A program made the position numbers and the translations under genes. This document shows positions 16 to 5,421 of a stretch of 64,000 nt of DNA, one piece after another. The notes beneath the pieces are model-generated. The model was not told where the DNA came from and made no database searches. It saw only the letters and a list, made by a program, of their open reading frames with translations. This DNA is from Tatumella ptyseos ATCC 33301 (lineage in GTDB: Bacteria > Pseudomonadota > Gammaproteobacteria > Enterobacterales > Enterobacteriaceae), in NCBI RefSeq assembly GCF_000735525.1, contig NZ_JMPR01000008.1, positions 112,298 through 176,297 of the forward strand, given 5' to 3'. Position 1 is the first letter of the stretch. Each line of letters opens with the position of its first letter.

Positions 16-2127
16 TCAGGAGACGACACGGGACAACTCAATCACCCGGTCTGCACTGGCAATGGTTGAAGGGCGATGAGCAATAAAGATACGGGTGATT
101 TTTAATTCACGAATAGAGGCGTTGACCCTGGCTTCATTGTCGAGATCGAGATGGCTGGTCGCTTCATCGAGGAACAGTATGGCCGGGCGGCGGTAGAGAG
201 CCCTGGCAATCAGTAAACGCTGTTTCTGGCCTCCGGACAGGCTACCCCCCAGTTCACTGACCAGGGTTTCGTATCCCATCGGCATTTGCATTATTTCATC
301 ATGGATATGACTGCTTTGCGCACAAGAAATTATCCGGTCCGGGTCTCTCTGCTCACTAAAGCTGGAAATATTTTCGGCAATAGATCCGGCGAATAACTTA
401 TCCTCCTGCAACACACAGGCAATACAGTCACGATAATTATTCAGTCCGGCGCCGCTGATATCAATACCGTTAAAAAGTACATTCCCGGTATCAGATGACA
501 GTAATCCGCTCATCACTTTCATGAGTGTGGTTTTACCCGACCCCGAAGGCCCCGTGATCGCGACACTTTCTCCGGCGGCGACCAGGAAGCTGACACCTGA
601 AAAAACAGGCCGGCTCAGTTTGTCATACTGATACCCCAAGTCCCGCACCTGCAGGCTGGCCGCTTCGTCTGGCGGGCAAAGTCTTCTTGCAGGCTGGTAT
701 ACCTCGGTTTCCTGCAGGACAATATCGGCAATCCTGTCGTTATGTAATGCCAGCATTCTTAACTGCAACACCATATCTATCAGTGCCGAAGCGCGCTCAG
801 AAAACTGCCCGCGGTAGGCATTAAAGGCCACAAACATCCCCAGCGTCATCTGCCCGTCAATGACCATTGATGCACCCAGCCACAGGATGATCACCTGATC
901 AAGGGTGGAGATCAGCGCGTTAACGCCGCCAAATAACATATCAAGACGCGTCATCCGGATACCGGCGTTAGTCGTATCAATATTCAGGTTAAGCCAGAAT
1001 CTGGAACGTATTTCTGTTAATCCCAGCACCTTTAGTGTACTGATCCCGTAAAGCGTCTCCATAAAATGGGACCCGGCACGGGCCTCTTTGACAATGTGCT
1101 CTTCCTGGGCCTGGCGGTAGCGCTGATAAGTCGACAGACGTAATACCATATAGATCAACGTAAATCCCAGTACGACTGCAATTAACCAGCCACCGTATAA
1201 CAGCATCATCACGAATACGCCGACAGAAACAATAACATCGATAGTCCCGCTCACCAGACTACTGGTCAGGGTGGAGCGGATAGTATCCAGCGACGAAAAA
1301 CGGGACTGGATATCGCCGAGCTTACGTTTTTCAAAGTAGGCCAGCGGCAGCCGGAGTAAGTGATCCATCAGCCCGGTCTTCCATTGAATATCGATCAGTG
1401 ACTGCATGACCAGCGACGTCCAGGCCCGCAGCATACTGATAAAGGTGCGGAACAGGATAAATGTCAGCAGTCCGAGGCAGATCAGGCCCAGCAGATCATG
1501 ATCCCGGGCAATGATGACATGATCCATCACCAACTGGGTGCCCATCGGGATCAGGAGATTGACCGCTTCTACCAGTAACGATAAACAGAAGATCCGGATC
1601 AGAAAGCCCGGTAATCCGCTGATATTTTTCATCAGCGATCGCAGGTTCAGTTTTGAACGGGCTTTAACCGGAATAAACTCACTATCCGGCCAGACTTCCA
1701 GCGCCACACCGGAGAAATGGCGGGAGATTTCAGTAAGACCAACCATTCTGCGACCAAATGCCGGGTCATGGATAATAAAACGCCCCCGCTTCACCGCCAC
1801 CAGCACCACAAAGTGACTCATATCCCAGTGCAGCAGACAGGGTCTTTTGAGCTGGCAGATTTCATCAATATCCAGCGACAGAGGACGTGTTTTTAAGGAC
1901 AGTTGCCCGGCGATATGAATGATAGTGGCCAGGGTCGCGCCGTGCGACGAGATACCAAAGCGACGACGCATATTGAGCAGGTCGATGTCCATCCCGAAGT
2001 AACGACACACCATGACCAGACACGCCAGACCGCATTCAGAAGCCTCCGTTTGCAGAATGCGGGGAACCCGTCGCCAGGGCGACAGCTGGATCCGCCGGAT
2101 GATGTCATTAAAGAATTCATTATTCAT
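16..2127 (-). CDS. Microcin/bacteriocin processing and export ABC transporter (CvaB-like, peptidase C39)
   Basis: A 703-residue inner-membrane exporter that should cleave the leader of a double-glycine-type precursor and pump the mature peptide out through a type I channel. The N-terminal C39 peptidase domain shows the TEASECGLAC motif with catalytic Cys32, and His105 and Asp121 in the expected places. A block of membrane helices spans about residues 165-450. The ATPase follows, with Walker A GPSGSGKTT near 527, signature LSGGQKQR near 629 and Walker B ILFLDEAT near 648. It overlaps the upstream adaptor gene by 8 bases, so the two are probably translationally coupled. The gene is complete, ending 15 bases from the window edge. 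Length and domain order match the colicin V exporter family (about 700 residues). The peptide candidate at 3530-3751 is the obvious substrate. The substrate is inferred from proximity. Confidence 0.9.
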   Translation of the reverse strand: MNNEFFNDIIRRIQLSPWRRVPRILQTEASECGLACLVMVCRYFGMDIDLLNMRRRFGISSHGATLATIIHIAGQLSLKTRPLSLDIDEICQLKRPCLLHWDMSHFVVLVAVKRGRFIIHDPAFGRRMVGLTEISRHFSGVALEVWPDSEFIPVKARSKLNLRSLMKNISGLPGFLIRIFCLSLLVEAVNLLIPMGTQLVMDHVIIARDHDLLGLICLGLLTFILFRTFISMLRAWTSLVMQSLIDIQWKTGLMDHLLRLPLAYFEKRKLGDIQSRFSSLDTIRSTLTSSLVSGTIDVIVSVGVFVMMLLYGGWLIAVVLGFTLIYMVLRLSTYQRYRQAQEEHIVKEARAGSHFMETLYGISTLKVLGLTEIRSRFWLNLNIDTTNAGIRMTRLDMLFGGVNALISTLDQVIILWLGASMVIDGQMTLGMFVAFNAYRGQFSERASALIDMVLQLRMLALHNDRIADIVLQETEVYQPARRLCPPDEAASLQVRDLGYQYDKLSRPVFSGVSFLVAAGESVAITGPSGSGKTTLMKVMSGLLSSDTGNVLFNGIDISGAGLNNYRDCIACVLQEDKLFAGSIAENISSFSEQRDPDRIISCAQSSHIHDEIMQMPMGYETLVSELGGSLSGGQKQRLLIARALYRRPAILFLDEATSHLDLDNEARVNASIRELKITRIFIAHRPSTIASADRVIELSRVVS

Positions 2128-3427
2128 GTAAAGGCCCGCTCAGACTCCGCCTGATGTCATAATAAGGTGCCAGGATCCATTGATATAATGGCCGGCTTTC
2201 CAGGAACAACGTGGTCTCTGCTTTCATCCCGTTAGACCAGCTCATAGGTTTGCCCTGAAACCGGAAGTCTCCGCTTTCCAGTGCGACTATCGTCTTATAA
2301 TAGGATTGGGTTACCCCCTGGCTGATACCGGTCGCACTACTGCTATACATTGCCAGCTCTTTCTGGCCTGCCGGTATCTGTGAGACTGACCTGATTTTTC
2401 CCGGAAACTGCCCGAATTTTTCAAAAGGATAGGCTTCAAACCGAAGATTCACGCTATCGCCCGGAGAGACATACGGCAGGCTGCTGTCCGTTAGCCAGAG
2501 GATCAATGAAAAGTCCGGGTCTCCGGCCGGCATCACCTGCGCCAGACTGTCACCGGTTGAAACCATCTGCCCCACGGTATACACCATGTTTTCGATAGTC
2601 CCGTCTTCCGGGGCATTAATAATTAAGGTGCCACTGGCGTTAACTTCGGCCAGCTGGCGTTCAAGCTCGCTGCGCTTTAAGGCATACTCCGCTGACTGAT
2701 TATCGAAATCAGCAGATTTTGTAGCGATTTCCGTTTCCAGATTAATTATCTGCAGGCTCTCCTGGATTGCCTGAGTATTCAGGCTCTGCCATGCCGATTG
2801 CTGCTGGTAGAATAAATAGCGCTGGTTATTGAACTGTTCTTTATTAATTAATCCCCGCTTAAGATAATCATCATAATTACCCATGCTTTTTTTCATATCC
2901 TGCAGTCCACGGGTCGAACTGTCCATTAATGCCAGTGAGTCTTTATGCGCTTTTTTATATTTTTCCAGTTGTTGTTGCAGGTTTTCCCTGGCGGAGATTT
3001 TATTACGATTTATTTTTTTTATAATTTCATCAATCAGTACCAGTTGCTGCCTGATAGCTTCCACACCACGCAGACTTACGTTGCCGTTCAGCGTTGTTTT
3101 ACTGACATCAATCTCATATAACGGCTCCCCTTTCTTTACCTGTTGCCCGGTATCAAAATATTTCCCGGAAATAACACCCTGCCAGGGCGAGTAAATGGTT
3201 ATTGCCTGCTCCCGGGAGATAATTTCTCCCCCGACATTAACCCTGCGGGTATATTCACCAAATAAAAGCCCGCCGATAATGACAGAAAAAAAGAAGGCAG
3301 AAAAAAGCACCACCAGCCAGGCCGGACATGCTGAAATAAGCAGTGCCTTACCGAGCCACTGTGTTCTCAGATGACGGAGAGCCTCCTCCCTGAAAATCGA
3401 ATTTCCTTCCATGGGTTCCACTATCAC
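2120..3427 (-). CDS. HlyD-family membrane fusion protein (CvaA-like microcin export adaptor)
   Basis: A 435-residue periplasmic adaptor that links the inner-membrane ABC exporter to an outer-membrane channel, presumably TolC. It has a short cytoplasmic N-terminus, one membrane helix at about residues 30-52 and a biotinyl-lipoyl half motif near 75-110 (SPWQGVISGKYFDTGQQVKKGEP). A long Gln/Glu/Lys-rich coiled-coil hairpin covers about 125-260, the second lipoyl half lies near 270-295 (INAPEDGTI), and a beta-barrel C-terminus follows. This is the CvaA/HlyD layout. The first codon is GTG and no strong Shine-Dalgarno sequence is seen, so the internal ATG at 3412 is an alternative start. It lies between the peptide gene and the exporter on the same strand. 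A terminator-like hairpin separates it from the peptide gene, so its expression probably depends on read-through or its own promoter. Confidence 0.88.
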   Translation of the reverse strand: MIVEPMEGNSIFREEALRHLRTQWLGKALLISACPAWLVVLFSAFFFSVIIGGLLFGEYTRRVNVGGEIISREQAITIYSPWQGVISGKYFDTGQQVKKGEPLYEIDVSKTTLNGNVSLRGVEAIRQQLVLIDEIIKKINRNKISARENLQQQLEKYKKAHKDSLALMDSSTRGLQDMKKSMGNYDDYLKRGLINKEQFNNQRYLFYQQQSAWQSLNTQAIQESLQIINLETEIATKSADFDNQSAEYALKRSELERQLAEVNASGTLIINAPEDGTIENMVYTVGQMVSTGDSLAQVMPAGDPDFSLILWLTDSSLPYVSPGDSVNLRFEAYPFEKFGQFPGKIRSVSQIPAGQKELAMYSSSATGISQGVTQSYYKTIVALESGDFRFQGKPMSWSNGMKAETTLFLESRPLYQWILAPYYDIRRSLSGPLHE

Positions 3428-3484
3428 TTTTAAGCACTGACGGAGCCATCCCTTAAGAATGACCGATCCTGATAACCTGATCTG

Positions 3485-3512
3485 AAAAAAGGTGCCAGAT
3501 CTCTGGCACCTT
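3485..3512 (-). terminator. Intrinsic terminator behind the microcin gene
   Basis: On the minus strand GGTGCCAG-AGAT-CTGGCACC forms an 8-bp perfect stem followed by six U residues, 18 bases after the microcin stop codon. It would make the peptide transcript more abundant than the export genes behind it, a common arrangement in bacteriocin operons. Confidence 0.8.
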
Positions 3513-3529
3513 GGAGGGATAGTCAGTGA

Positions 3530-3751
3530 CTATTTATCGCGTAATAATTTAATCGCGGAGGTCACAAAGCTGAAGGCAGATTCGAGAGTCAGCCCCAGGT
3601 TAGTTCCAACGGCAGAAGCGTTTGCTACCGAGTTTTTCAGGCCCAGCACTTTCATTGCACCACCAAGAGTGCTACCGATATTACCCAGAGAATCTGCCAG
3701 TGCGCCCGCACCAGAAACGCATTCCACTTCAACGTGAGTTAATTCTTTCAT
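3530..3751 (-). CDS. Putative class II microcin precursor with double-glycine-type leader
   Basis: A 73-residue peptide not recognised as any named microcin. The first 15 residues, MKELTHVEVECVSGA, match the colicin V leader pattern (M-[RK]-x-L-T-x-x-E-x-x-x-V-S-G-G) except that the last glycine is alanine, a variant C39 peptidases tolerate. Cleavage there would release a 58-residue peptide of about +2 net charge. The mature part has no cysteine and is rich in Gly, Ala, Ser and Leu, with GxxxG-type spacing at residues 19-53 and an amphipathic C-terminal helix ending in KLLRDK. These features suit a membrane-inserting antibacterial peptide. The start is set by an AAGGA site 7 bases upstream. 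It lies directly before the adaptor and exporter genes. Family and export are well supported; target and activity are unknown. The only cysteine, Cys11, is in the leader. Confidence 0.8.
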   Translation of the reverse strand: MKELTHVEVECVSGAGALADSLGNIGSTLGGAMKVLGLKNSVANASAVGTNLGLTLESAFSFVTSAIKLLRDK

Positions 3752-4182
3752 AGATTATTCCTTTTTTATAAAAATCCCTAAGAGTATGAAACACGCAATG
3801 ACATACGTCCCCGTCAGTTATACACCGGTCCGTACCGTTATCATTTGCGTACAGGAAATATACCTGACGATTATTTTAATGCAATATATCCGCACACACA
3901 CATCCGGAAAGCAAAATACAGAGTCATTTTATAATTAAGAAATATACCGGGATAAAAAAAGGAAAACTGATTAAATACTGCCACAAAAAGGAAACTGACG
4001 TCATGATTATTTCACTCCCGAAGAGAATATCCGGAATTCAAAATCATACAGGGGTAAATTATCAGAGTATTTCACCCGAATGCATTCAATAAAAATGAAC
4101 GCCATGAATAATATACAAAGCCTTCACTATCACGTATCGATAGAAGAGCCTGCCGGTTTTCACCGCCAGGCCCGTCAGCGTA
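3752..4182. other. AT-rich gap upstream of the microcin gene; no clear immunity gene
   Basis: About 430 bases, clearly more AT-rich than the neighbouring genes, containing the microcin promoter region. In colicin V- and microcin N-type loci the immunity gene lies just before the precursor gene. Here only very short ORFs are visible. A 26-residue strongly hydrophobic minus-strand ORF (3924-4004, ATG with a GGAG about 11 bases upstream) is preceded by a 32-residue ORF ending at 4007. A 46-residue plus-strand ORF (3798-3938) has no convincing ribosome binding site. None is recognisable. The 26-residue peptide is the least poor immunity candidate, but it is below the usual size. Confidence 0.4.
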
Positions 4183-5421
4183 TTAACCAATCGCCCCCAG
4201 AGCATCATCCGTTCCCCGGGTACGGGGTAATAAAAACAGCGTTGCCAGAACATCGACCACATAGATCAGTGCCAGCAGAGTTATCGCCGCCGTGAAAGAC
4301 CATTCTGACGCAAGCGAGCCGATGACCAGGGGTCCCAGCCCTCCGACGGCGCGCCCGGCATTGAATAATACATTCTGCGCAGTCGCCCGGGCGGCGACCG
4401 GGAATGTATCAGAGATGAGAGCACCGTAACCACCGATCATGCCGTTCACGAACATCCCCATCACCGCACCGGCAAGCAGCATCAGCGAGGGGTCGGTAAG
4501 CCTTGCATACACCACCACCATAACCACCGCCCCTAATTGATACAGGATAAAGATTTTCCAGCGGGCAAAACGGTCGGCCAGTATTCCAAATAACCCGATA
4601 CCCAGTGTCATGCCTATAACGGTGACGGCTGTCCAGATCCCCGATTTTGTCAGCGTAAAACCAAAGTTCGCGGAAAGATAACCCGGCATCCAGATCATCA
4701 GCCCGTAATAGCCAAAATTTTGCACCGAACAAAGAATAAAAATACCTATGCTGGCTTTTGCCGTCATTCTGTCTTTAAAGAGTAATTTAAGACGAGACGT
4801 AAAGGCGAGAGGCGTAGGTTCGGCCGGCTGACGGGCAAATGCGTCAGGTTCACCTAATCCATGACGGATAACAAAAGAAAACAGTGCAGGAATAAGCCCC
4901 ACCAGGAACATTCCGCGCCAGCCGATATAAGGTAGCAATACTGGCGTCAGTACAGCGGCCATCAGTACACCTGCCTGCCAGCCAATACCCACCCATGCCG
5001 ATGCACGGTTACGTTTACTGGCAGGCCAGACTTCCGCAATCAGTGCCATACCTATCCCGAACTCCCCCCCGAGCCCGACACCGGCCAGTGTCCGGTAGAC
5101 CAGTAGATCCGGATAGCCTCTGGCGACAGCGCATAATCCGGTGAATACAGAAAACATCAGGATAGTCAGCGAAAGTATTTTGATCCGCCCGAAACGGTCA
5201 CTCAGATGACCAAAAATAATCCCTCCTATCACCGCCCCTATCAGAGTCCAGGTCACCAGAGAACCGGCCTGTGAATAATTGAGCGACAGAGAAAGACTGA
5301 TCGCCGGTAACATAAACCCGAGGATGAGCAGATCAAAACCATCCATCGCATAACCACTGATCGCCGCGAGCATTGCTTTCGCTGGCGTCACTCTTTTTTT
5401 CTTACGCACGTGTGTATCCAT
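4183..5421 (-). CDS. MFS transporter (metabolite:H+ symporter type)
   Basis: A 412-residue inner-membrane carrier with twelve predicted helices. The conserved loop between helices 2 and 3 reads GHLSDRFGRIK. Helices 4-5 carry the RTLAGVGLGGEFGIGMALIAE stretch seen in the aromatic-acid/sialate-type symporters of the major facilitator superfamily, and the Asp in helix 1 (GYAMDGFDLLILG) is typical of the same group. A basic N-terminal tail (RKKKR) precedes helix 1. The substrate cannot be told from sequence. It stands alone between the microcin locus and phoU with no catabolic gene beside it, so context does not help. Upstream are 115 bases separating it from the phoU stop. Confidence 0.8.
   Translation of the reverse strand: MDTHVRKKKRVTPAKAMLAAISGYAMDGFDLLILGFMLPAISLSLSLNYSQAGSLVTWTLIGAVIGGIIFGHLSDRFGRIKILSLTILMFSVFTGLCAVARGYPDLLVYRTLAGVGLGGEFGIGMALIAEVWPASKRNRASAWVGIGWQAGVLMAAVLTPVLLPYIGWRGMFLVGLIPALFSFVIRHGLGEPDAFARQPAEPTPLAFTSRLKLLFKDRMTAKASIGIFILCSVQNFGYYGLMIWMPGYLSANFGFTLTKSGIWTAVTVIGMTLGIGLFGILADRFARWKIFILYQLGAVVMVVVYARLTDPSLMLLAGAVMGMFVNGMIGGYGALISDTFPVAARATAQNVLFNAGRAVGGLGPLVIGSLASEWSFTAAITLLALIYVVDVLATLFLLPRTRGTDDALGAIG

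Follow-up and report, generated by a model that had tools for sequence, protein, structure and literature searches.

A chromosomally inherited, microcin-like peptide export cassette without a recognised immunity gene in Tatumella ptyseos and its relatives

The cassette and its three genes

This study concerns a window of 64,000 nucleotides (the whole stretch of DNA that was analysed) from Tatumella ptyseos ATCC 33301 (NCBI RefSeq assembly GCF_000735525.1, contig NZ_JMPR01000008.1, positions 112,298 to 176,297) and, within it, a cassette of three genes at window positions 16-3751, all on the reverse strand (-): a small peptide precursor gene (pep1), then a cvaA-like gene and then a cvaB-like gene. 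An earlier note on this DNA had proposed an undescribed class II microcin locus here. The cassette was compared across a Tatumella set of six genomes, which includes that of ATCC 33301 itself (G000; 3.53 Mb in 88 contigs), Tatumella sp. JGM118 (G005), JGM91 (G003) and T. morbirosei (G002). The features of the cassette are listed below; GG and GA stand for leaders ending in double glycine or glycine-alanine, and dN and dS for nonsynonymous and synonymous divergence.

3758-3763: AAGGAA, likely ribosome-binding site of pep1, kept in the nearest relative, JGM118
3530..3751, (-): pep1, GA-leader precursor gene, 73 amino acids (open reading frame list, orthologues, dN/dS)
3707-3751, (-): pep1 leader MKELTHVEVECVSGA, which ends Ser-Gly-Ala
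3533-3706, (-): predicted mature part of pep1, 58 amino acids
3489..3512, (-): intrinsic-terminator-like hairpin in the pep1-cvaA gap, 10-bp stem, 4-base loop, then a T-run
2120..3427, (-): cvaA-like membrane fusion protein, 435 amino acids; Pfam HlyD_3 at 1.2e-12
16..2127, (-): cvaB-like C39-peptidase ATP-binding cassette (ABC) exporter, 703 amino acids; Pfam domains and motifs

The 73-residue precursor with a colicin-V-type leader that the earlier note described is present in the list of open reading frames (ORFs), and orthologues and constraint were found for it. Its mature part is glycine-rich and cysteine-free, as had been claimed (13.8% Gly, no Cys), carries a net charge of +2 and two GxxxG motifs, and ends in SAIKLLRDK. 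The Ser-Gly-Ala end of the leader had been called odd, which it is not, since GA is an accepted cleavage site by the published rule: class II microcin leaders are stated to end in GG or GA (Cole et al., 2022, PMC9746304; Kulikova et al., 2024, PMC11494933, the latter with hydrophobic residues at -4, -7 and -12), and the legend to figure 2 of PMC4997328 has "double-glycine or glycine-alanine" shaded in peptides that include microcins. In pep1 these positions are V/V/L, as the rule requires, and the leader as a whole has the class II microcin form (15-18 residues, GG or GA end, hydrophobic -4/-7/-12). The peptide is also small, and its glycine content lies within the 12-26% given for class II microcins (PMC11494933).

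Between ATCC 33301 and JGM118, pep1 shows a dN of 0.064 and a dS of 0.672 (dN/dS about 0.10), with 24 of the 35 nucleotide differences at third positions. The six differences in the leader are all silent, leaving 0 of 15 residues changed, and 7 of the 58 residues of the mature part differ. More distant pairs have saturated dS and unreliable ratios (about 0.07 to 0.50 in 8 of 10 pairs, and no dS in the other 2). For the same two genomes, dN and dS are 0.037 and 0.459 for cvaA, 0.015 and 0.453 for cvaB and 0.030 and 0.702 for the flanking major facilitator superfamily (MFS) gene; pep1 is thus constrained, though it changes faster than the two exporter genes do. Because of this low dN/dS and of orthologues at a common site in five of the six Tatumella genomes, pep1 is more than a chance reading frame.

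The earlier note had not recognised the mature part among named microcins. Searched against profile models, the precursor touches the Pfam MccV model weakly, over residues 1-32 only, at 13.8 bits against the gathering cut-off of 27 that marks microcin V membership, and no NCBIfam model matched at E up to 1. Three matches only were obtained among PDB sequences (E 0.088 to 0.87), all unrelated. No description of the pep1 locus was found in the literature searched, and in one paper where Tatumella and microcins come up together, the 9 mentions of "microcin", as far as its passages show, concern microcin C uptake and references. Membership of class IIb, the siderophore microcins, was considered and rejected: the SAIKLLRDK end has no Ser/Gly-rich C-terminal motif and no modification genes lie nearby.

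The peptide sits before its own CvaA- and CvaB-like genes on one strand, as claimed, and both assignments are borne out by ORFs and Pfam domains. The cvaB-like product matches Peptidase_C39 (6e-31), ABC_membrane (4.1e-48) and ABC_tran (1.4e-29), with an intact C39 triad (Cys32/His105/Asp121), Walker A at 526, LSGGQ at 630 and Walker B at 650. The cvaA-like gene overlaps it by 8 bases; its listed start is GTG 3427, and its probable start is ATG 3412, which gives the beginning MEG... found in the ORF lists of three other Tatumella. Against NCBIfam TIGR01843 its product reaches 98.2 bits, below the cut-off of 208.65.

A terminator-like hairpin separates pep1 from the exporter genes (fold -17.5 kcal/mol, z -3.5). 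It occurs at this place in all five Tatumella cassettes, its stem being changed on both sides between species. An automatic consensus terminator scan did not report it, we think because the scan extended the stem into the T-run. A scan for promoter-like sites found one where 1.9 were expected, and that one on the other strand. A terminator in this position may serve to keep peptide output high and exporter output low.

Immunity and the flanking genes

No evident immunity gene had been seen at the locus, and none was recognised in the gaps or flanks of the five Tatumella cassettes. Frames of 51-216 residues, the size of cognate immunity proteins in verified class II microcin cases, are represented in the gaps by unlike and unconserved frames only, and other frames upstream of pep1 or 3' of cvaB show no correspondence between species. 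The features concerned are:

3752..4182, (-): stretch upstream of pep1; none of its frames bears signs of coding selection
3871-3984, (-): hydrophobic frame of 37 residues that overlaps a 26-residue ORF; GTG start in ATCC 33301
4183..5421, (-): MFS gene next to the cassette, resembling aromatic acid/H+ symporters; TIGR00895 at 306.9 bits, below the cut-off of 418.55

The gap upstream of pep1, for which the earlier note had suggested a comparison across relatives, is AT-rich and 71.7% identical between ATCC 33301 and JGM118; the comparison brought out no frame with coding selection. The 26-residue hydrophobic ORF (3924-4004, (-)) that had been offered as a possible unusually small immunity gene exists in the window and is not conserved: its codon 8 is a stop in JGM118, leaving seven codons, and it was rejected. 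JGM118 has the overlapping 37-residue frame open as well (47 residues, 16 of 37 alike), but its dN of 0.375 exceeds its dS of 0.200, its changes are spread 16/7/7 over the codon positions, and in tblastn against the loci of T. morbirosei, JGM91, G001, G371, G312 and G004 it found nothing better than E 0.07; it was rejected as well. Both frames are hydrophobic and on the right strand, but a very small immunity protein encoded in this gap appears very improbable.

The flanking genes are not tied to the cassette. In unannotated loci the names nfeD, SPFH, rsmG, atpI, liv, ycjX/ycjF and mukB are presumptive, given from the starts of the proteins; phoU, pstA, pstB and mnmE also align with annotated E. 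coli K-12 genes. In G004, a Tatumella genome that lacks the cassette, the MFS gene (L054) is followed after about 160 bases by an NfeD-like gene with no cassette between. Because G004 keeps the MFS, NfeD and SPFH genes without the cassette, we regard all three as independent of it. The MFS gene, which is not beside the cassette in G371 and G312 of a second genus, was considered as efflux immunity and rejected as an obligate partner, and the NfeD and SPFH genes, present both with and without the cassette, were rejected as immunity genes.

As a check that immunity genes can be picked up in this way, a locus with a GG-leader peptide in another genus (L132) has a 78-residue two-helix ORF directly upstream. 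A crude filter of hydropathy and ribosome sites was then applied to 51 distinct CvaA loci (54 minus 3 repeats), most of them hand-picked from the better CvaA matches rather than random, and many related. At GA-type loci (n=35) a small hydrophobic ORF lies on the peptide strand in 4 and on the other strand in 3, and two of those four are spurious: one lies within a second peptide gene, and the other is itself a second peptide. At loci with other leaders (n=8) the counts are 3 and 0. The filter assigned no peptide to the remaining 8 loci, wrongly so in at least 4 (known peptides in L041, L112, L121 and L126 were missed).

A conventional bacteriocin could also have its immunity encoded elsewhere in the genome, or one of the producer's housekeeping proteins could confer it. 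In favour of this account, it is difficult to recognise immunity proteins, and many lack annotation (PMC9746304, PMC13101503), but immunity adjoining the precursor is the stated rule (PMC13101503), and neither the pep1 site nor that of a second precursor described below shows an immunity gene, a distant gene not having been searched for; we consider it unlikely. Judged by its architecture, with a C39 ABC exporter bearing the catalytic triad and a membrane fusion protein near the precursor, the locus works like a class II microcin system, and it is because an adjacent cognate immunity protein was looked for and not found that we do not file it as a class II microcin.

Inheritance of the site and further precursors

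pep1 occurs in five of the six Tatumella genomes (identity 100, 90, 58, 53 and 46%) and not in G004. The same five carry cvaB, and in all of them the cassette occupies a single place on the chromosome, between phoU and nfeD. In a second genus (g153), of which three genomes were read, the cassette is intact in G371 and G312, and a remnant in G158, where only cvaB pieces are left between phoU and nfeD (L147:4190-5638). The order in G371 and G312 is phoU, one or two GA peptides, cvaA, cvaB, nfeD, SPFH and mnmE, which is the Tatumella order except for the MFS gene, the cassette there adjoining phoU. Nothing other than the MFS gene, the cassette, nfeD and SPFH was seen in the phoU-mnmE interval. 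Because this site is common to Tatumella and the second genus, the cassette is ancient and inherited.

The trees are consistent with this. A CvaB tree of seven genomes has the same branching order as a tree of six housekeeping proteins, in which ATCC 33301 filled 1158 of 1712 columns and G004 is placed either within the other Tatumella or next to them (support 78/85). The simplest account is that the cassette was present in the common ancestor, was lost in G004 and decayed in G158. JGM91 has its cvaA divided between two frames that overlap (L042:6001-7286), through either a real break or an assembly error; the peptide gene and cvaB are open there. The earlier note had allowed that the locus might be a degraded remnant, and the decay in JGM91 and G158 lends this some colour. 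In the window itself we found no support for it: the three open genes, the intact catalytic motifs and the low dN/dS led us to reject it, and a non-functional remnant in T. ptyseos is barely credible. A mobile plasmid origin was rejected as well, since pep1, searched at E up to 0.01, matched none of 72,556 plasmids; CvaA is met on plasmids only below 60% identity (710 records).

To find further precursors in the Tatumella genomes we used a profile (A1) built from an alignment of 17 pep1 relatives. Those found include:

G000:C10:21596-21889 (L179:5097-5390), (-): pep2, GG-leader peptide, 97 amino acids, between rsmG (gidB) and atpI
L056:5938-6234, L184:4969-5265 and L183:4967-5263: pep3, GA-leader peptide, 98 amino acids, in G001, G002 and G003 only

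No exporter lies near pep2. The gene is present in ATCC 33301, G005, G002, G003, G371 and G312 (four of six Tatumella, two of three g153) and absent from the rsmG-atpI interval in G004, G001 and G158, that interval measuring 654 bases in G004, 658 in G158 and 1165 in G001. In the genomes that have pep2 it ranges from 874 to 1594 bases. It thus accompanies six of the seven intact or near-intact cassettes (JGM91 with its split cvaA being counted) and neither of the two genomes that lost the cassette. Between ATCC 33301 and G005 its dN is 0.031 and its dS 0.404. In ATCC 33301 the interval holds no other frame of at least 50 residues except one antisense to pep2; some of its frames of 30-49 residues are alike in ATCC 33301 and JGM118. 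Because the unlinked pep2 is kept with the cassette and gone in both losses, one exporter would serve several unlinked client peptides, very probably so in the case of pep2. pep3 adjoins liv-like transport genes in G001 and G002.

Relatives of the system extend beyond these genera. The pep1 precursor, searched at E up to 1, found matches in 59 of the 246 genomes of the family-level group, most of them weak, and at 1e-40 a CvaA relative is present in 87 of 392 genomes. Among the related loci read gene by gene, several are compact, with peptide(s), cvaA and cvaB in one intergenic spot. A GA peptide of 63 residues accompanies cvaAB with a near-identical start in nine loci (L109, L110, L113-L117, L119 and L120), with a related peptide in L121. 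Seven of these ten loci, namely the seven whose neighbours were read, have two upstream genes in common, which we take to be ycjX/ycjF-like. In L110, L113-L117 and L119-L121 the strongly conserved peptide, about 63 residues long, begins MKQLTE.DIEMVNGAG, and in several genomes it is divergent from the cvaAB pair. At 0.001 the A1 profile, used to look outside the family, matched 13 of 394 genomes of the order, ATCC 33301 included. Three of its matches (L158, L159 and L160) lie in g194, a genus with genomes of 2.6-2.9 Mb in another family of the order, beside a frame that is presumably a mukB-like end.

Possible roles of the exported peptides

We favour, with a probability of roughly 0.47, the reading that the cassette is an intact, vertically inherited export unit that also serves pep2 and whose microcin-like products target the envelopes of other bacteria, no dedicated immunity gene being needed at the locus. 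pep1, with its own terminator, is followed by the overlapping membrane fusion and C39 ABC exporter genes, and on this reading the exporter would remove the leader after Ser-Gly-Ala, the predicted cleavage site. The 58-residue glycine-zipper peptide would leave through TolC, and the same exporter would also serve the GG-leader pep2 between rsmG and atpI. The mature peptides would then act on the membranes of other bacteria in class IIa microcin fashion, while the producer might be protected by direct export without re-uptake or by a factor encoded elsewhere.

Three lines were counted for an antibacterial action. Each of the 17 peptides in A1 shows some match to Pfam MccV at E up to 1; L063 does best, with 23.0 bits over residues 1-73 of 77, still below the membership cut-off of 27. 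In NCBIfam, 2 of 17 match lactococcin G-alpha (best E 0.0011); the other hits there are scattered and weak, among them bacteriocin_sig (1), the E492 microcin (1, 0.055) and glycine-zipper lipoproteins (6). Finally, candidates of the same general kind have been tested by others: some activity was reported for 17 of 40 Serratia candidates (PMC13101503), and weak self-inhibition for 12 of 23 from Pantoea, Erwinia and Xanthomonas, possibly a nonspecific burden according to the authors (PMC13174018).

Among known systems the locus is close in plan to microcin V/colicin V (CvaC-CvaA-CvaB, class IIa), with which it shares a GG-type leader, a small glycine-rich peptide, a C39 exporter with the Cys32/His105/Asp121 triad, a membrane fusion protein and the gene neighbourhood. 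Unlike that system it has no recognised immunity gene, falls short of the MccV model, has a second unlinked precursor and, in Tatumella, is chromosomal and inherited at a fixed site. In Serratia marcescens, 93-96% of assemblies contain putative class II microcins, which likewise come as several precursors per genome, some of them away from the exporter, but immunity was predicted there for 21 of 40 tested (PMC13101503; compared by description).

A serious alternative, to which we give somewhat less credence, is that the exported peptides are not bacteriocins at all and serve a conserved secreted trait (surface, biofilm, surfactant, autolysis or signalling) in which immunity is unneeded. The lack of a recognised immunity gene at either precursor locus, the fixed sites, the vertical inheritance, the constraint and the absence of the peptide from all plasmids searched would fit such a trait, and there are precedents. 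EbfG1-4/PteB of Synechococcus elongatus are small GG-leader proteins with a C39 transporter that are non-killing and work in biofilm, although they are cyanobacterial and stem from a four-gene transcript (PMC4997328; compared by description). The Naps of Neisseria gonorrhoeae, GG peptides that resemble class II microcins, show no detectable antimicrobial activity, but they use the C39 peptidase NapP and a FapF-like channel, NapF, and come from a horizontally acquired island with an immunity-like gene, napI (PMC11798529). On the other side, repeated loss and the lineage-specific pep3 equally fit a dispensable weapon, and the MccV likeness of the relatives points to microcins.

A further point claimed for a non-bacteriocin role is the likeness to the PSMbeta family (PF05480), which the C-terminal segment of 7 of 17 A1 members touches below the cut-off (best E 7.8e-5, 22.8 bits against 25, in L057:6668-6892). 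The five Tatumella pep1 peptides gave no match at E up to 1, so that none of these peptides belongs to PSMbeta by its cut-off. Across 392 genomes, PF05480 matched 26 at E up to 0.1, two of them over the cut-off; the four best matches are GA-leader peptides and the fifth overlaps a weak precursor match. Many of the remaining matches lie inside long unrelated frames, and 1 of 14 control genomes was matched, below the cut-off. We know of no double-glycine leader and no C39 exporter described for PF05480. The likeness may be convergent, and we retain it as a pointer for the wider family alone.

Several points weigh against the envelope-active reading that we favour. The peptide was absent from the plasmids searched, and vertical inheritance at fixed sites does not resemble the behaviour of a bacteriocin that is traded horizontally. 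The co-loss of pep2 rests on nine genomes and two losses, and G001 keeps the exporter and pep1 without pep2. G021 has a precursor-like peptide without a CvaA match at 1e-40. No promoter motif common to pep1 and pep2 was found, their best shared word scoring below the best of 30 shuffles in ATCC 33301, G005 and G002 and one point above it in G003. There are also the frames of 30-49 residues beside pep2 and the one hydrophobic frame of 37 residues beside pep1.

As far as sequence can establish, the genes are intact and under selection, their location and inheritance are settled, both peptides are gone in both exporter losses and no linked immunity gene is recognised; killing, signalling and a surface role cannot be told apart on these grounds. 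What is new is that the site is inherited, that the terminator is conserved and that an unlinked second precursor is lost along with the cassette. We tentatively entertain a broader possibility, in which a core-genome secreted-peptide system has been mistaken for bacteriocins: a fixed-site C39 exporter with several unlinked, immunity-less GG/GA peptides, non-killing, passed down in two genera or more and given up together once the exporter is lost.

In genome surveys, double-glycine peptides encoded next to a CvaB-like exporter are commonly called microcins, which makes them weapons. The lack of recognised immunity together with the exporter-linked co-loss raises the question whether such peptides really are weapons, and Tatumella and g153, with G004 and G158 as naturally occurring nulls, offer a small and uncluttered system in which the label can be tested. 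If the peptides kill, self-protection without a dedicated local immunity gene would need explaining; if they do not, a widespread class of secreted peptides in the Enterobacterales would need a new function.

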